Below are positions 7,864-23,693 of a stretch of 24,260 nucleotides of DNA, piece by piece. Every line of letters begins with the position of its first letter. The first letter of the stretch is position 1. The DNA comes from a virus: positions 1 to 24,260 of the IMG/VR virus record IMGVR_UViG_3300047550_003812; one strand, given 5' to 3'. The notes below the pieces were generated by a model. It was not told where the DNA came from and did not search any database. It was given only the letters and a program-made list of their open reading frames with translations. Both the position numbers and the translations under genes were made by a program.

Positions 7864-7932
7864 AACATTCTACGCGATTTTACCGTCAAGAAAACTATAG
7901 ATATTAGCGAATTAATAAGAAAGATAAAATAA
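7864..7932 (+). pseudogene. Orphaned, diverged 3' end of the 145-residue protein gene
   Basis: Read in the frame ending at TAA 7930-7932, the stretch encodes [16 protein letters not shown] then ELIRKIK. Its last 18 residues match the C-terminus of the protein at 6837-7274 at 11 positions without gaps (DFTV, IDIS, KIK in register). It has no start codon of its own and lies directly after the endonuclease stop. TAATG overlaps the nrdA start, the kind of spacing expected if the intact gene once led into nrdA. Best read as the displaced original 3' end after endonuclease invasion. Confidence 0.78.
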
Positions 7933-9404
7933 TGGAAATATTTGTTAAGAAACGTTCAGGAGAAACAGAACCACTTAATTTAGAAAAATGGCAAGCACAG
8001 ATTGCAAAAATCTGCAAAGGTATTGCAGATGTAAGTCAATCAATGATTGAAATCAAAGCACAACCACATTTTTATAATGGAATTTCTACCCGTGAAATAG
8101 ATGAAATTACATTACGTGCCATTTCAGACCTAATCAACGTAGAAATAAATCCAGAAGTTGGTAACACCAACTATCAGTATGTAGCAGGTAAACAACGTGT
8201 TGGGATGCTTCGTAAAGACGTATATGGATCATATGATCCACCAAAACTATATGAAATCGTAAAAAAGAATGTTGAAGTAGGTCTTTATACGCCTGAACTA
8301 TTAGAATGGTATACAGAAGAAGAATGGAATAAAATGGATGCTATGATTGATCATAGCAAAGATGAACTTTATAGCTATGCAGCAATTGAGCAATTGGTTG
8401 AGAAATATCTAGTAAAAAATCGCACAACCAAACAGATTTATGAAACGCCGCAAGTCAGATACATGATTGCTGCCGCCACTGTTTTTCATCGTGAGGAACC
8501 ACAATCAGCTAGAATGCGTTACATAAAGGAGTACTACAATGCTGCATCCGATGGTCTTTTTACTCTCGCTACTCCTGTTCTCGCTGGTCTTGGCACTCCT
8601 ACCAAGCAGTTTTCTAGTTGCGTCCTCATACGCAGCGATGATGATCTTGATAGTATATTTGCTAGCGGGGAAATGATGGCAAAATATGCCAGCAAACGTG
8701 CTGGTATTGGTCTTGAAATTGGTAGAGTTAGACCTTTAGGCGCCCCAATTAGAAAGGGTGAAATACTACATACTGGACTAGTTCCTTTCTTGAAGAAATG
8801 GTTTGGTGATCTTAGGTCCTGCAGTCAGGGTGGCATTCGTAACGCCAGCGCTACTATTACATATCCTATTTGGCATTATCAATTTGAAGACCTAATTGTT
8901 CTTAAGAATAATCAAGGAACTGAAGAAACCAGAGTACGACATTTGGATTATAATGTAGTAATGAGTAGTTTATTTCTAAAACGATTTAAGAACAAAGAAA
9001 ATATTACATTTTTTGATCCTAACGAAGTCCCTGATCTTTATGAGGCATACTATCGTGACATTTCTCTATTTGATCATTTATATGTTCAATGCGAAAAGAG
9101 AACCGATCTTCGCAAGAAGACTATGAATGCTGAAGATGTCTTTAAGAGTGGGATCTTAAAAGAAAGAACAGATACAGGACGTATATACATTACCTTTATT
9201 GATAATGTACAGAAACAGGGTCCTTTTGATACTAAACTATATCCCATCTATCAGTCAAATCTTTGTCAAGAGATTTTACTTCATACCAAGAGTTTTAAGA
9301 GAATGGATCCTGAGCGTAAATTAATTCGTGTTAAAAAATCCAATGTTGATGAGTTTATGAAGAACAAATCCAACGATATAGTAAAAATCAGGCGAATACA
9401 ATAA
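7932..9404 (+). CDS. nrdA: Ribonucleotide reductase class Ia large subunit, N-terminal piece
   Basis: 490 residues, against about 750 or more for a whole NrdA. Residues 1-90 are an ATP-cone (opens EIFVKKRSGETEPLNLEKW). The barrel follows, with the first redox-active Cys in QFSSCVLI (equivalent to E. coli Cys225). The active-site strand QSNLCQEI has Asn443, Cys445 and Glu447, matching E. coli Asn437, Cys439 and Glu441. Homology stops at Asp459; residues 460-490 are a novel basic tail (10 Lys/Arg, 4 Asp/Glu), then TAA. The rest of NrdA, starting just before the Cys462 equivalent, is at 10403-11422. NrdA reduces ribonucleoside diphosphates together with NrdB. The start overlaps the upstream remnant stop (TAATG). 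Confidence 0.93.
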   Translation: MEIFVKKRSGETEPLNLEKWQAQIAKICKGIADVSQSMIEIKAQPHFYNGISTREIDEITLRAISDLINVEINPEVGNTNYQYVAGKQRVGMLRKDVYGSYDPPKLYEIVKKNVEVGLYTPELLEWYTEEEWNKMDAMIDHSKDELYSYAAIEQLVEKYLVKNRTTKQIYETPQVRYMIAAATVFHREEPQSARMRYIKEYYNAASDGLFTLATPVLAGLGTPTKQFSSCVLIRSDDDLDSIFASGEMMAKYASKRAGIGLEIGRVRPLGAPIRKGEILHTGLVPFLKKWFGDLRSCSQGGIRNASATITYPIWHYQFEDLIVLKNNQGTEETRVRHLDYNVVMSSLFLKRFKNKENITFFDPNEVPDLYEAYYRDISLFDHLYVQCEKRTDLRKKTMNAEDVFKSGILKERTDTGRIYITFIDNVQKQGPFDTKLYPIYQSNLCQEILLHTKSFKRMDPERKLIRVKKSNVDEFMKNKSNDIVKIRRIQ

Positions 9405-9419
9405 TTAAATGTGCTTAAA

Positions 9420-9452
9420 GTACAGAGTAATGATAAATAACTGTACAGGAGG
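9420..9452 (+). promoter_or_regulatory. Hairpin with late-promoter-like box ahead of the nrdA-embedded endonuclease
   Basis: GTACAG (9420-9425) and CTGTAC (9441-9446) form a perfect 6-bp inverted repeat. The 15-base loop contains GATAAATA (9432-9439), one base off the T4 late promoter TATAAATA. A strong ribosome binding site AGGAGG (9447-9452) begins directly after the 3' arm, 5 bases before ATG 9458. Transcripts from upstream could fold and crowd the site, while transcripts starting just after the box would lack the 5' arm. This is the arrangement known for T4 I-TevI, but here it is inferred from a short stem. Confidence 0.45.
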
Positions 9453-9457
9453 CACAA

Positions 9458-10222
9458 ATGAATTACTCAGGTTTTATATACGAATGGATAAACAAAATAG
9501 ATGGAATGAAGTACTTGGGGTCACATAAAGGTACAATCAATGATGGTTATACTGGAAGCGGTAAGCGATTTGAAAATGCCAAAAACAAATATGGTATTGA
9601 AAATTTTGAAAGAACTATTGTAGAATATGTTGAAAAAGAGGAAGATATATTGGTAAGAGAGCAATATTATTTGGATGAAAGAAATTGTGCTAAGAGTTCT
9701 CTTTATTACAATATTTCGCCTAATGCAGGAGGAGGGGATTGTGGAAACGGTCCTAAAATATCCGAATCAAGAAAAAGAAGATTCGCTACAGACTTGGTAA
9801 TAAGCAACAAAGGCAAAGCGATGAAGGAGGAACAAAAAATTAAATTAGCAGATGAATGGGAAGTTATTACTCCTGCTAAAGAAGTTTTGACGATCACTAA
9901 TATGCTTGAATTTTGCCGCCAACATAAACTAAACGCCAGTGCTATGAGTGCAGTTTCTCGTGGTAGAAGAAGTATGTATAAAGGTTATAAATGTAAAAAA
10001 TTAACCAACAAAAGAGAAGTCGAATATGAGCACAAAGAATATGTCTTTATGACTAAAGAAGAAAGAAGTCAACAACTCAAAGAGTTGGCAATCAAAGGTG
10101 GCAAACATCATGAAGCAGTAAAAATTGAATATGATGGTGTTGTTTATGGTAGTATAGTAGAAGCAAAAGAAGCAACAGGCAAAAGTTACTACTTAATTAC
10201 AAAATATGGAAAGAGAATTTAA
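9458..10222 (+). CDS. GIY-YIG homing endonuclease inserted in nrdA
   Basis: 254 residues. The N-terminal nuclease has GFIYEW (GIY strand), MKYLGSHKG (YIG strand), the YTGSGKRF motif, NKYGIENF, a catalytic-type Glu in VREQYYLDERN, and YYNISPNAGGG, as in phage Seg-type enzymes. The middle (DEWEVITPAKEVLTITNMLEF and onward to GYKCKKL) and the end (VKIEYDGVVYGSIVEAKEATGKSYY, first part) resemble IENR1/NUMOD1 DNA-binding repeats. A good AGGAGG site precedes ATG 9458. The gene sits between the two nrdA pieces, after the stop of the first, so it is a free-standing endonuclease rather than an intein. Core motifs look intact. Confidence 0.88.
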   Translation: MNYSGFIYEWINKIDGMKYLGSHKGTINDGYTGSGKRFENAKNKYGIENFERTIVEYVEKEEDILVREQYYLDERNCAKSSLYYNISPNAGGGDCGNGPKISESRKRRFATDLVISNKGKAMKEEQKIKLADEWEVITPAKEVLTITNMLEFCRQHKLNASAMSAVSRGRRSMYKGYKCKKLTNKREVEYEHKEYVFMTKEERSQQLKELAIKGGKHHEAVKIEYDGVVYGSIVEAKEATGKSYYLITKYGKRI

Positions 10223-10223
10223 T

Positions 10224-10406
10224 ATGAAAGATCCTAAATTAGGGTATCACTGGATATGGATGTTACCAGTTTGGTTAATGTGTGAAGCATACTTTAAAGT
10301 TTGTGATCTTTGTAGATATGTTTATTATCAAATTAATATCAAACTGATTTATAAACGAAATCCAGAGATTAAAGAATTAACGAAATTATCAGGAATAAAG
10401 AAATGA
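10224..10406 (+). CDS. 60-residue ORF between endonuclease and nrdA C-terminal piece
   Basis: Not recognised. The ATG at 10224 directly follows the endonuclease stop (TAA 10220-10222) and has GGAAAGAG upstream. An in-frame ATG at 10206 would overlap the endonuclease by 17 bases and is less likely. The stop overlaps the start of the nrdA 3' piece (ATGA at 10403), so it probably couples translation into that piece. The aromatic hydrophobic stretch WIWMLPVWLMCEAYF near residues 10-24 could be a single membrane segment, and the C-terminal half is basic. Possible roles are passenger of the endonuclease or simply a translational bridge. Confidence 0.55.
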   Translation: MKDPKLGYHWIWMLPVWLMCEAYFKVCDLCRYVYYQINIKLIYKRNPEIKELTKLSGIKK

Positions 10407-11422
10407 ATAAACTATATGAAGAAATAGATTATCTTCCAGAAGAATTGGATGATGAATATGAGTATTATGAAATTGACGAAGCAGAGGGCAGGGTGGCCTT
10501 ATGCACACTTGGAAGTATCAATTGGGGATGCTTTAGAAATCCAGAAGATATGCGCCGTGCTTGCAGAATTCTTGCACGTAGTCTAAACAACATACTTGAT
10601 TATCAAGACTTTTTAAGTATACAAAGTAAGCTCAGTAATGAAGAAATTAGACCATTGGGTATAGGAGTCACTAATCTAGCATATTGGCACGCTAAACGTG
10701 GTTTTAAATACGGTGAAAAAGATGCACTGGCTGAAGTTAAATCATGGATGGAACATCAAGCCTATTATCTAACTGAAGTCAATGTCGAGTTGGCTAAAGA
10801 AAGAGGTAAATGTTTGCATAGTGATGAAATGCGTTATGGTCAAGGTATTTTCCCTTGGGAACTACGTGCAGAAGGCGTAAATCAACTAACAGATTTTACT
10901 CCTGAATTAGACTGGGAAAATCTAAGAACAGAAATGAAAACGTATGGGGTTCGTAATGGAACACTAATGGCTATTGCACCCGTTGAATCTAGTTCAGTGG
11001 TCATCAATTCAACTAATGGCATTGAGTTGCCCATGAGTCTAATTACAACTAAAGAAAGTAAAGCTGGTAGTTTCACTCAAGTAGTGCCAGAATATCAAAA
11101 GTTGAAGAATAAATATCAACTTATGTGGGAGCAGAAAGATTGTATTGATTATTTGAAAACTGCTGCTGTTTTGGCAGCATATGTTGATCAAAGCATCAGT
11201 ACAAATACTTTTTATTCACCTAAACATTTTGCTGATAAAAAAGTTCCTGCAACACTTATTGCAAAGAATTTAATGCTCGCACAGAAATATGGTCTAAAAA
11301 CACTGTACTATTCACTTTTGGATAAATCTGGATCTAAACTTTCAATTGAGGCACCTACTACTAATTTAAAAGATGTTGAAGAAATAGCACAAGAAGAACA
11401 CTGCGAAAGCTGTGTTTTATAA
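10403..11422 (+). CDS. nrdA: Ribonucleotide reductase class Ia large subunit, C-terminal piece
   Basis: 339 residues with its own start (AGGA at 10391-10394). Residues 1-24 are an unusual acidic, Tyr-rich head (10 Asp/Glu, 1 Lys, 5 Tyr). NrdA homology begins near Asp25 with EGRVALCTLGSINWG, where Cys34 equals E. coli Cys462. Further motifs are RPLGIGVTNLAYWHAKRG, the substrate loop APVESSSVVINSTNG, the radical-transfer tyrosine pair in TLYYSLLDK, and the C-terminal redox pair Cys334/Cys337 in HCESCVL. Every active-site element missing from the first piece is here, so the two chains together make one complete NrdA. Twelve bases separate it from nrdB. Confidence 0.93.
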   Translation: MNKLYEEIDYLPEELDDEYEYYEIDEAEGRVALCTLGSINWGCFRNPEDMRRACRILARSLNNILDYQDFLSIQSKLSNEEIRPLGIGVTNLAYWHAKRGFKYGEKDALAEVKSWMEHQAYYLTEVNVELAKERGKCLHSDEMRYGQGIFPWELRAEGVNQLTDFTPELDWENLRTEMKTYGVRNGTLMAIAPVESSSVVINSTNGIELPMSLITTKESKAGSFTQVVPEYQKLKNKYQLMWEQKDCIDYLKTAAVLAAYVDQSISTNTFYSPKHFADKKVPATLIAKNLMLAQKYGLKTLYYSLLDKSGSKLSIEAPTTNLKDVEEIAQEEHCESCVL

Positions 11423-16429: not shown

Positions 16430-16449
16430 AAAGTTTGACAACAAACTTT
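16430..16449 (+). terminator. Perfect 8-bp hairpin after the structural gene
   Basis: AAAGTTTG and CAAACTTT pair around an ACAA loop, 6 bases after the stop at 16424. No T-run follows, so it is a weak candidate as an intrinsic terminator. The -35 box of the promoter below lies across its 5' arm and loop, so it may also be a protein-binding palindrome. Confidence 0.35.
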
Positions 16450-16463
16450 AAAACAGTTATAGT
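16435..16463 (+). promoter_or_regulatory. Sigma70-type promoter for the lysis cassette
   Basis: TTGACA (16435-16440), a 17-base spacer and TATAGT (16458-16463): a perfect -35 and a -10 one base off consensus. It is in the 69-base gap upstream of the SleB-like gene, whose strong AGGAAGGA site precedes ATG 16494. Predicted start of transcription is near 16470. Confidence 0.65.
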
Positions 16464-16493: not shown

Positions 16494-17033
16494 ATGTTTA
16501 TAATGAAATTATTTACCAAATTTTTTGGGTTACTACTTGTAATCGCTACTATCTATATGATAGTATCATACAAGTATGAGAATATCCCATTTAAAAATGA
16601 AACATACAAATCATATGTTACCGCTGGAAATGTTGACCGAATGTTAGATTGCCTGACAACAAACATTTATAATGAAGCTGCAACTGAGCCATTTGAGGGT
16701 AAACTTGCAGTAGCTCAGGTAACATTAAATCGTGTTGACCATCCAAAGTTTCCCAAAGATGTATGTAAAGTAGTATATGAAAAAAATATTTTCATGGAAA
16801 AAGTAGTATGTCAATTTAGTTGGTATTGCATGAAAGTTCCAAAAATCAATAAGGAAAGTGATGAATACCAAGAAAGTCTTGTAGCTGCAAAAAAAGTATT
16901 GCTTGAAGGGTTTAGGTTAGAATCTTTACGTGAAGCTATTTTTTATCATGCAGACTATGTGAATCCAAATTGGCCATACAAAAAAGTAAACAAAATTGGT
17001 AGGCACATCTTTTATTCGGAGAAGAAATCATGA
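16494..17033 (+). CDS. SleB-like cell wall hydrolase (endolysin)
   Basis: 179 residues. An N-terminal hydrophobic segment, FFGLLLVIATIYMIVSY (about 10-26), is a signal anchor or SAR-type segment. The hydrolase_2/SleB domain follows: LTTNIYNEAATEPFEGKLA with the likely catalytic Glu in NEA, VAQVTLNRV, and CQFSWYC near residue 105. SleB-type enzymes are lytic transglycosylases or amidase-like cell wall hydrolases. Start choice: GGAAGGA sits 5 bases before ATG 16494, better than the Met at 16503. The stop overlaps the putative holin start (ATGA at 17030). Expected to degrade host peptidoglycan at lysis. Confidence 0.86.
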   Translation: MFIMKLFTKFFGLLLVIATIYMIVSYKYENIPFKNETYKSYVTAGNVDRMLDCLTTNIYNEAATEPFEGKLAVAQVTLNRVDHPKFPKDVCKVVYEKNIFMEKVVCQFSWYCMKVPKINKESDEYQESLVAAKKVLLEGFRLESLREAIFYHADYVNPNWPYKKVNKIGRHIFYSEKKS

Positions 17034-20951: not shown

Positions 20952-20959
20952 AACTAAAA

Positions 20960-20993
20960 CTGTCACATTATTTTCATAATAGCAAACTATAAT
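20960..20993 (+). promoter_or_regulatory. Pho box with -10: PhoB-dependent promoter of pstS
   Basis: CTGTCAC (20960-20966), 4-base spacer ATTA, TTTTCAT (20971-20977): two heptamers in 11-base phase, the first fitting the CTGTCAY consensus and the second 5 of 7. A perfect TATAAT -10 follows at 20988-20993, 10 bases after the second heptamer, the classic Pho-box/-10 spacing with no -35 box. The pstS ATG is at 21025. AATAAATA at 20997-21004 is one base off a T4-type late box, so a second, late start is possible. Confidence 0.78.
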
Positions 20994-21024
20994 TGCAATA
21001 AATATTTTAACACAAGGAGAATAC

Positions 21025-22035
21025 ATGAATAAAATATTTGCAACATTGTTAAGTTTTTTCACTGCTTCAGCAATAGCAGCGGATATCACCGGAGCTGGTG
21101 CTACTTTCCCTTACCCAGTCTATGCTAAATGGGCAGAAGTCTACAAAAAAGAAACTGGAGTAGGATTAAACTATCAAAGTATTGGCAGTAGTGGTGGTAT
21201 CAGACAGATAAATGCCGGTACCGTTACTTTTGGAGCTACCGATGCGCCAGTAAAAGGCGAAGATTTAGACAAAGCAGGTCAGGTTCAATTTCCTGCAATT
21301 ATAGGTGGCACAGTGCCGATCGTTAATCTTGAAGGTTTTAAACCAGGTGAATTGCGTATTACTGGGCCAGTAATGGCTGAAGTTTTTATGGGTACCATTA
21401 CAAAGTGGAATGACCCAAAATTAGTTTCACTCAATCCAGGCAAACGTTTACCTGATCAAAACATCACGGTAGTACATCGTGCAGATGGTAGCGGCACTAC
21501 ATTCAATTGGACAGATTATCTTACCGTAGTAAGTCCAGAATGGTCACAACGTGTAGGTCGTGGTGCAGCAGTTAAATGGCCTGCGGCTAGCAGTGTAGGT
21601 GGTAAGGGCAATGAGGGTGTTGCTGCAAACGTTGCACGAATTAAAGGTAGTATTGGATATGTAGAGTATGCCTATGTAAAGAAAAACAATCTTGTATTCA
21701 TGCAGCTACAAAATCGCAACGGTCGTTGGGTAAGTCCAGATGATGTCACTTTTGCGGCTGCTGCTGATGGAGCTGACTGGTTTAGTGTTCCTGGAATGGG
21801 ATTGAGTATTGTTAATCAACCAAATCCAAATGCATGGCCCGTATCTAGTGCAAGTTTCATCATAATGTATAAAAACCCAAAAGACAAAGAACAAAGTGCT
21901 GATGTTATTAAGTTCTTTGACTGGGCTTTTAAGAATGGCAAGAATCTTGCCCTAGAACTAGATTATGTTCCATTACCGGATTCATTGACTAATCAAATAC
22001 GTCAACGTGTTTGGACACAAATCAATAACAAGTAA
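21025..22035 (+). CDS. pstS: Periplasmic phosphate-binding protein of the Pst transporter
   Basis: 336 residues. The signal peptide (residues 1-18, MNKIFATLLSFFTASAIA) is followed by ADITGAGATFPYPVYAKW. The phosphate-site motifs are present: SIGSSGGIRQI, ATDAP and HRADGSGTTFNW. It captures phosphate in the periplasm for the host Pst ABC transporter; no other pst genes are in view. Carried in phages such as cyanophages as an auxiliary metabolic gene. AAGGAG lies 7-8 bases before the ATG. It seems expressed from its own Pho-box promoter and ends before a strong hairpin at 22079-22100. The closest look is proteobacterial. Confidence 0.94.
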   Translation: MNKIFATLLSFFTASAIAADITGAGATFPYPVYAKWAEVYKKETGVGLNYQSIGSSGGIRQINAGTVTFGATDAPVKGEDLDKAGQVQFPAIIGGTVPIVNLEGFKPGELRITGPVMAEVFMGTITKWNDPKLVSLNPGKRLPDQNITVVHRADGSGTTFNWTDYLTVVSPEWSQRVGRGAAVKWPAASSVGGKGNEGVAANVARIKGSIGYVEYAYVKKNNLVFMQLQNRNGRWVSPDDVTFAAAADGADWFSVPGMGLSIVNQPNPNAWPVSSASFIIMYKNPKDKEQSADVIKFFDWAFKNGKNLALELDYVPLPDSLTNQIRQRVWTQINNK

Positions 22036-22041
22036 ATCGGC

Positions 22042-22100
22042 CTCAACGATTGAGAGGTGCTGGAATTCGTAACCAGCTAGTAGGACCGAAAGGTCCTACT
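22042..22100 (+). other. Three tandem hairpins after pstS (terminator or structured RNA)
   Basis: The arms are CTCAA/TTGAG (22042-22054, CGA loop); GCTGG/CCAGC (22059-22077, 9-base loop); and AGTAGGACC/GGTCCTACT around a GAAA tetraloop (22079-22100), a perfect 9-bp stem. No T-run directly follows (GTTTT begins 11 bases on). It may be a transcription or processing boundary, protecting the 3' end of pstS mRNA, or part of an unknown RNA; nothing indicates a tRNA. Confidence 0.6.
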
Positions 22101-22113
22101 GTCCCGTAATGTT

Positions 22114-22141
22114 TTGAAATGTTCTATTTTTTCGATAGAAT
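22114..22141 (+). promoter_or_regulatory. Possible sigma70 promoter for the peroxiredoxin operon
   Basis: TTGAAA (22114-22119), 16-base spacer, TAGAAT (22136-22141). Its -10 overlaps the 3' arm of a 6-bp palindrome (TTCTAT 22122-22127, ATAGAA 22135-22140), so the palindrome could be an operator or weak hairpin. The gene at 22169 has AAAGGA before its ATG. Confidence 0.4.
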
Positions 22142-22168
22142 AGCTTTTAATTTTTTGAAAGGAAATAT

Positions 22169-22702
22169 ATGAAAACAGTAGGTGATAGACTTGAATTTTT
22201 TGCTGTAACAGGCGTTAATCCAGGTAGCGATAAATTTTTTGATATTACACATAAAAGTTTTGAAGGCAAGTGGAAGGTAATTGTTTTTTATCCAAAAGAT
22301 TTTACGTTCGTTTGCCCAACAGAAATCGTAGCATATGACAAGTTGTTTCAAGACTTTGAAGATCGTGATGCAGTATTAATGACCGGAAGCACCGATAATG
22401 AATTTTGTAAGTTGGCTTGGCAAAATGCTCACCCTGATCTAAAGAAGATCAAGCATATTCAATTTGCTGATACACAGCGGGGTGATTTCAGTCTTGCAGA
22501 CCAACTAGGTGTATTTTTTAAGCCAGCAGGTGCTGCTCTACGTGCTACCTTTATTGTTGACCCCGGCAATGAAATTCAACATGTTACAGTCAACAACTTG
22601 AATGTTGGTCGTAGTCCAGAAGAAACTCTACGTGTGTTAGACGCCTTGCAAACTCAGGAATTATGTGCATGTAATCGTCAAGTAGGCGGGGAAACACTAT
22701 AA
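22169..22702 (+). CDS. AhpC-type peroxiredoxin
   Basis: 177 residues. The peroxidatic Cys49 is in KDFTFVCPTEI. The C-terminus ELCACN carries Cys166 and Cys168, which match the resolving CxC of actinobacterial-type AhpC. FYPKDFT and the later LRATFIVDPG are family landmarks. It reduces peroxides; the electron donor (AhpD, thioredoxin or similar) is not in the window. This is an auxiliary gene that could protect phage production under oxidative stress. Coupled to the next gene by TAATG (stop at 22700-22702). Confidence 0.92.
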   Translation: MKTVGDRLEFFAVTGVNPGSDKFFDITHKSFEGKWKVIVFYPKDFTFVCPTEIVAYDKLFQDFEDRDAVLMTGSTDNEFCKLAWQNAHPDLKKIKHIQFADTQRGDFSLADQLGVFFKPAGAALRATFIVDPGNEIQHVTVNNLNVGRSPEETLRVLDALQTQELCACNRQVGGETL

Positions 22703-23304
22703 TGTTAGAAACCATCTCTGAATTATTTCAAGAAGCATATAAACGTAATTGGATAACTGCCAGAGATGGCAACGCTAGTATTCGTTGGCATGATAGGGAT
22801 CATTTTTATGTAACACCTAGTGGTGTTCGTAAACAGATGTTACAGCCAGAAATGTTCAAAAAAATGAGTTTGGACGGTCTTACAAGTCTTCCATATACTG
22901 ATATCAGTTCTAATTTAAGACCTAGTGGCGAATTGCCCTTGCATATGGCACTACAAAGTAAAATTAATACTGAAGTTAGAGTTGTATTACATTTTCACCC
23001 TACATATACTGTAGCTGCTATGTATGCTGGTATTCAACTTCCGGATTTACTAAAAGAATTTCCTGAACTGAGTAGATATACCAGTGTTGCTCCTAATGTT
23101 CCGTTGATCCCTCCGATCACGAAAGAACTAGCAGATGCATGTGTTAAAAATATTGGGTACAATCCAGTAACTGGAACAGTACGATACAACATCGTAGGCA
23201 TGGATAGACATGGAGTGGTAGCAGTTGATACTAGTCCATGGCGAGCATTTGAACACATTGAAAGGTTGGAACATATATGTCGGATTGTTTTAGCCAGTAA
23301 ATGA
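22702..23304 (+). CDS. Class II aldolase/adducin-type sugar-phosphate enzyme
   Basis: 200 residues. Phosphate-site motifs GNASIR (23-28) and TPSG (38-41), the catalytic-type Glu77 in SGELPLHMAL, and zinc ligands His97, His99 (HFHP) and His170 (DRHGVVAV) are all present. The family includes fuculose- and rhamnulose-1-phosphate aldolases, ribulose-5-phosphate epimerase and methylthioribulose dehydratase; the substrate is not readable. Its place between the peroxiredoxin and heptose-phosphate genes suggests a sugar-phosphate step. Overlaps both neighbours. Confidence 0.85.
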   Translation: MLETISELFQEAYKRNWITARDGNASIRWHDRDHFYVTPSGVRKQMLQPEMFKKMSLDGLTSLPYTDISSNLRPSGELPLHMALQSKINTEVRVVLHFHPTYTVAAMYAGIQLPDLLKEFPELSRYTSVAPNVPLIPPITKELADACVKNIGYNPVTGTVRYNIVGMDRHGVVAVDTSPWRAFEHIERLEHICRIVLASK

Positions 23305-23693
23305 AAAAGATTTTTATAAACGGTACATTTGATATAATTCATTTAGGTCATCTAGCACTTTTTAACTATGCAAAGAGTCTAGGTGACTTTTTGCTTGTTG
23401 CCATTGATAGTGATAAAAGAGTAAAACAATTAAAAGGAAATGATCGTCCTATTAATAACCAAATAGAAAGAAAAACTCTACTAGAAAATCTAAAGGCAGT
23501 AGATGAGGTACAAATTTTTGACACAGACCAAGAACTGATAGATATAATTGCAACATGTGATGTTATGGTTAAGGGGTCAGACTATATTGGTAAACCTATT
23601 GTAGGTGAACATGTTTGCAAACAAATTATTTTTTTCGACAGAATAAATGGATACTCAACAACCAAAAAAATTCAAAGTATTACTAATAGGTGA
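23301..23693 (+). CDS. Heptose-1-phosphate adenylyltransferase-like nucleotidyltransferase
   Basis: 130 residues. NGTFDIIHLGHLALF carries the HxGH signature (residues 14-17). KQLKGNDRPINNQIER follows the HldE C-domain pattern, as do VKGSDY and YSTTKKIQ (the ISTTxxI-type end). HldC/HldE-type enzymes make ADP-heptose from heptose-1-phosphate. The start shares ATGA with the aldolase stop. It overlaps the kinase gene by 47 bases in another frame, so the two HldE domains are separate and in reversed order compared with E. coli. Confidence 0.83.
   Translation: MKKIFINGTFDIIHLGHLALFNYAKSLGDFLLVAIDSDKRVKQLKGNDRPINNQIERKTLLENLKAVDEVQIFDTDQELIDIIATCDVMVKGSDYIGKPIVGEHVCKQIIFFDRINGYSTTKKIQSITNR

Follow-up and report, generated by a model that had tools for sequence, protein, structure and literature searches.

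The pstS gene of an uncultivated virus raises the question of whether its transcription is governed by the phosphate-starvation system of the host, by the late transcription machinery of the phage, or by both. The window (the whole stretch of DNA analysed, 24,260 nucleotides) is a 24-kb fragment of this virus. Its gene at 21025 unambiguously encodes PstS, scoring 399 bits against NF008171 (cut-off 339) and 370 against TIGR00975 (cut-off 205). The nearest bacterial relatives of the protein, at ~80% identity, are found in Comamonadaceae, above all Limnohabitans; with PstS similarity as the only guide to the host, phages of this group probably infect freshwater Comamonadaceae.

The Pho box and −10 element of the window

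All parts of the putative promoter lie in the gap upstream of pstS:

20952–21024: pstS upstream gap, 73 bp, containing all promoter parts
20960–20966, + strand: Pho box half site 1, CTGTCAC, read from the sequence; rank 1 in the window by the host-derived PhoB matrix
20971–20977, + strand: Pho box half site 2, TTTTCAT; aligns with the conserved TTGTAAC/TTGTCAC of viral and host relatives
20988–20993, + strand: sigma70-type −10 hexamer TATAAT, N10 from the Pho box
20997–21004, + strand: T4-like late promoter box AATAAATA, 20 nt 5′ of the pstS ATG
21014–21019, + strand: Shine-Dalgarno sequence AAGGAG, read from the sequence
21025–22035, + strand: pstS, periplasmic phosphate-binding protein, 336 aa (NCBIfam PstS equivalogs)

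The half sites start 11 bp apart and are separated by a 4-bp AT spacer; the second is the weaker, with two changes relative to CTGTCAT. Seven-bp direct repeats in 11-bp phase that replace the −35 element, followed by a −10 at N10, are likewise the design of bacterial PhoB-activated sigma70 promoters (the E. coli Pho regulon and Comamonadaceae pstS). Pho-box-like repeats are present in 52 non-redundant Comamonadaceae pstS promoters, and the best −10 stands at N10 in 49 of them, mostly as TA[ACG]A[GT]T, with an occasional poor hexamer such as TAGAGT among host PhoB promoters. None of the 52 contains TAAATA, and a −10 spacing of N11 is likewise never used.

A PhoB matrix built from these 52 promoters, and hence independent of phage, gives the window Pho box 15.3 bits, the highest score among 48,452 positions on both strands (runner-up, 7.8) and within the range of the host sites' own scores under the same matrix (13.8 to 24.7). 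Of 4.0 million positions drawn from a Markov model of the window, 9 reach this score, an expectation of 0.11 such Pho boxes per whole window on both strands; by arithmetic from this figure, about 1.6e-4 would be expected by chance in the 73-bp gap, and a perfect TATAAT at exactly N10 adds a further factor that we estimate at roughly 1e-3. The earlier note, made from the letters alone, had described two half sites in exact 11-base phase with TATAAT at the expected distance and had taken them for a PhoB promoter; its coordinates and layout are right, the proteobacterial matrix it proposed ranks the site first, and the half sites are better than any elsewhere in the window. Pho boxes predicted in a cyanophage have proved unreliable (PMC10976474); the present case rests on conservation and spacing in sequence comparisons, and not on one single Pho box match.

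Fused and tandem arrangements upstream of viral pstS

Eighty IMG/VR loci encode PstS at 78–87% identity, and these reduce to 35 distinct upstream regions (the window included), all of which were checked. A Pho box of the proteobacterial type followed by TAAATA at N11 or N21 is present in 29 of the 35 and absent from the other 6. In class I (fused; 24/35), TAAATA lies at exactly N11 from the Pho box, and both half sites are kept while most of the spacer varies. In class II (tandem; 5/35), TAAATA lies at exactly N21 and is accompanied by a sigma70-like −10 at N10 or N13:

Window: TATAAT at N10; TAAATA (the core of AATAAATA, 20999–21004) at N21
L012: TAAAAT at N10; TAAATA at N21
L014 and L059: TATAAT at N13; TAAATA at N21
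L061: CATAAT at N13; TAAATA at N21

The earlier note's reading of a TATAAT behind the Pho box thus holds for the window, which is an exception, most relatives carrying TAAATA in the −10 place.

Class I was chosen by its TAAATA, so the invariance of the hexamer there is by construction, and a distance scan served as the independent test. Among Pho boxes scoring at least 22.5 at the 80 loci, with distances from N5 to N29 considered, TAAATA occurs only at N11 (70 cases), N21 (8), and N22 (11), counts that include redundant copies; the N22 cases come from an extra (third) phased repeat. The tandem box is found each time at N21, exactly 10 bp past N11, which suggests that helical phase matters, and strict spacing is supported by PhoB–RNA polymerase models (PMC10294691). 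On the PstS tree the viral proteins form one fully supported side with the hosts opposite. The window is sister to L001, a fused locus that has TAAATA and lacks TATAAT, and the tandem form requires at least three changes, arising among fused forms.

TAAATA as a late-type motif and a putative dual-input promoter

TAAATA is the top enriched hexamer upstream of ORFs in large relatives (G004, G005, G006, and G030; z 14.6–20.5, 140–349 kb analysed), where it ends mostly 16–26 nt 5′ of gene starts. The genes behind it in G006 and G004 encode tail sheath, tail tube, baseplate wedge, head–tail adaptor, head decoration, and tail fibre proteins; TGnTATAAT promoters in these phages stand before exonuclease, QueD-like, and other early-type genes. 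Aligned TAAATA promoters of the large relatives show no strongly conserved upstream element, a picture that fits T4 late promoters, which have no upstream or −35 element and need none with gp55 (PMC2988020), and the hexamer fits the cyanophage motif NATAAATA as well (PMC2984593). Comparison with T4-type late promoters (TATAAATA, served by gp55/gp33/gp45) extends to the TAAATA core, the short leader, the structural genes, and the gp55 relatives encoded by large records. On these sequence grounds TAAATA is a real late-type motif of this phage group. In the window itself it occurs 16 times on the + strand, and 4 of these, the pstS box among them, stand 18–24 nt 5′ of gene starts (0.27 expected, P about 2e-4). 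The earlier note's suggestion of a possible second, late box between the −10 and the gene is thereby strengthened, as TAAATA is late-type in the group and keeps fixed distances to Pho boxes.

A gp55-like late sigma factor was identified in 7 of 32 records (E about 1e-23), all of them large relatives, and none was found in the short records of the closest relatives, L001 (36 kb) and L012 (45 kb), or in the 24-kb record of the window; the window's own phage presumably encodes one. In T4, gp55 acts together with gp33, which sits on the beta flap and mimics sigma4 (PMC2988020; PMC7892883). The T4 gp45 clamp family had no match in the relatives, by a search that is uninformative either way.

If pstS had simply brought a normal PhoB/sigma70 promoter with it from the host, and AATAAATA were an AT-rich match by chance, the perfect TATAAT retained at the host N10 spacing and the AT-rich leader of the window would be accounted for. 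This reading would not account for the TAAATA that 29 of 35 non-redundant viral promoters have at N11 or N21, for the late-type character of this hexamer in the group, for its clustering 5′ of gene starts in the window, or for its presence without TATAAT in the sister L001, and we regard it as quite improbable.

We propose instead that the window pstS promoter is a dual-input promoter, a reading that its elements and their conservation make likely: host PhoB and sigma70 would act early in starved cells and a phage late sigma factor would act later. In a phosphate-starved host, PhoB~P would bind 20960–20977 and recruit host sigma70 RNA polymerase to the TATAAT at 20988–20993, so that PstS could be produced early, during the shutdown of host transcription; later, a phage gp55-like late sigma would read AATAAATA just downstream and maintain pstS transcription alongside that of the late genes. 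The two inputs would, in most relatives, converge on a single −10, the TAAATA at N11. Because a starvation switch appears to be joined to a late signal, and in relatives is fused to it at one fixed spacing, pstS is probably expressed at two times, early when the host is starved and late in the infection.

The fused form admits a further step. The 8-bp late box of T4 spans about −13 to −6, and TAAATA at N11 therefore leaves the Pho box as far from the start as TATAAT at N10 does, which makes PhoB acting on the late-sigma enzyme worth considering. PhoB has been modelled as touching alpha, beta, and sigma (PMC3348028). It is conceivable, although we hold the idea only tentatively, that in the fused relatives host PhoB~P directly stimulates phage gp55-type late-sigma RNA polymerase; pstS would then belong, with a PlcP-like phosphoesterase gene and one small gene, to a late regulon under the control of the host's phosphate state.

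A single sigma would suffice at the fused promoters if TAAATA at N11 were a variant sigma70 −10 used with PhoB. PhoB promoters do tolerate poor −10s, as the host TAGAGT indicates, and TAAATA read at N11 retains T−12 and A−11; however, it lacks T−7 at N11 and A−11 if read at N10, and is therefore a poor sigma70 element. Neither the N11 spacing nor the hexamer occurs in any of the 52 hosts, TAAATA stands before structural genes where there is no Pho box, and the phages possess TGnTATAAT promoters of their own (before exonuclease and early-type genes), so that a sigma70 promoter was available. This explanation seems unlikely.

A possible small Pho box–TAAATA regulon and its parallels

Pho boxes at N11 from TAAATA were found only at pstS, at the PlcP-like phosphoesterase gene, and at one small gene. 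At the TAAATA promoters of the large relatives, the N11 Pho score has a median of 9 and a maximum of 15.5, apart from exceptions that score 22–25 (two promoters each in G006 and G030 and one in G004); these belong to pstS and to a gene of 143 aa, and at pstS, unlike the other TAAATA promoters, an upstream element (the Pho box) is present. Orthologous 143-aa genes in G006 and G030 share the promoter; in the two large phages the genes with a Pho box N11 from TAAATA lie as follows:

L181:4269–4700, − strand: 143-aa gene
L212:17716–18147, − strand: 143-aa gene

The 143-aa proteins have a weak match to the malonyl-CoA decarboxylase C-terminal domain.

A metallophosphoesterase gene with its own Pho box, N11, and TAAATA is present in L009, L021, L030, L032, L035, L071, and L073; its product is a calcineurin-like phosphoesterase that falls below the LpxH cut-offs. 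In L001, L004, L011, and L036 the PlcP-like gene adjoins pstS, and a GT4 glycosyltransferase gene comes after it; PlcP-like and GT4 genes also occur near pstS in L009 and other loci. PlcP-Agt is a lipid-remodelling pair of phosphate-starved bacteria. The phage PlcP-like and GT4 pair, as we read it, resembles PlcP-Agt, and by this analogy phage-encoded phospholipid-to-glycolipid remodelling in phosphate starvation is possible. An N21 match 5′ of the PlcP-like gene in L011 and L036 places TAAATA almost on the start codon and was not counted as support.

The late box alone might instead drive pstS, with the Pho box a relic of the host promoter that arrived with the gene; an upstream element is indeed needless at gp55-type promoters (PMC2988020). 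Against this, both half sites have been retained in class I, where most of the spacer is variable, and an N11 Pho box also precedes the PlcP-like gene and the unrelated small gene, which a relic would not explain. We judge the relic reading very improbable, and prefer a dual input.

The proposed promoter departs from its bacterial counterparts in serving a phage gene with an added TAAATA late box, and most relatives swap the sigma70 −10 for TAAATA at N11. It departs from T4 late promoters, which are without an upstream or −35 element (PMC2988020), in placing a host activator site at a fixed distance. In RB49, S-PM2, and Syn9, early and late promoters overlap, and one gene likewise has a box for host sigma (early) as well as a late box, but the descriptions of that early input mention no nutrient-sensing activator (PMC2984593), whereas here a Pho box is present and class I phages appear to share one −10 between both inputs.

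Host-controlled phage pstS is already known from cyanophages (P-SSM2 and S-SM1, under host PhoBR), the parallel drawn by the earlier note. It stands in principle, but the cyanophage PstS is only about 35% identical, and in the records checked the Pho boxes are of CTTAA type, are located either ahead of the gene that precedes a DUF680-pstS pair or inside the end of that gene, and are not joined to a late box. No TAAATA at N11 from a Pho box was found in these cyanophage records (12 compared directly upstream of pstS, 7 of these also further upstream). The window has CTGTCAC-type repeats and a pstS promoter of its own in place of the CTTAA box and DUF680-pstS operon, and the cyanophage upstream regions were rejected as a direct parallel. 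In S-TIM5 and Bellamy, a CTTAAATA may be read either as a half site of a Pho box or as a late box. Promoters near cyanophage pstS have been described as offering "no single regulatory solution" (Sullivan 2010, PMC3037559). In Pelagibacter phage Mosig EXVC030M (L245), pstS and a PlcP-like gene (annotated UDP-2,3-diacylglucosamine hydrolase) diverge around a 150-bp gap with repeated TTAAC/GTTAA motifs; a Comamonadaceae-type Pho box at N11 is absent from this gap, which is possibly a SAR11-type Pho region.

The literature searched yielded no description of a T4-type late box coupled to a Pho box. What appears to be new is the link between a Pho box and a phage late promoter, set at a single exact spacing or at that spacing plus one helical turn, an arrangement that recurs at a second phosphate-related gene. 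It raises two questions: can a gp55-type polymerase, having no sigma region 4, be activated by a response regulator of the host, and by what means does a phage keep a nutrient-scavenging gene active once host transcription is shut off?

Rfam and tRNA searches of the window gave no matches. The gap 3′ of pstS (22036–22168) folds into several consecutive hairpins (z −3.4, no Rfam match), including AGTAGGACC-GAAA-GGTCCTACT, which is without a T run. It is followed (22169–23693) by genes for an AhpC-like peroxiredoxin, a class II aldolase (MtnB-like), and a cytidylyltransferase-like protein; relatives of the peroxiredoxin, at 80–86% identity, are encoded in other pstS-bearing loci. The nrdA gene (7932–11422) is split into 7932–9404 and 10403–11422 around a GIY-YIG endonuclease ORF (9458–10222), whose product is probably a homing endonuclease carried by an intron; a TAAATA box stands 18 nt 5′ of the ORF. 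A canonical sigma70 promoter, TTGACA-N17-TATAGT (16435–16463), precedes a cell wall hydrolase gene at 16494.
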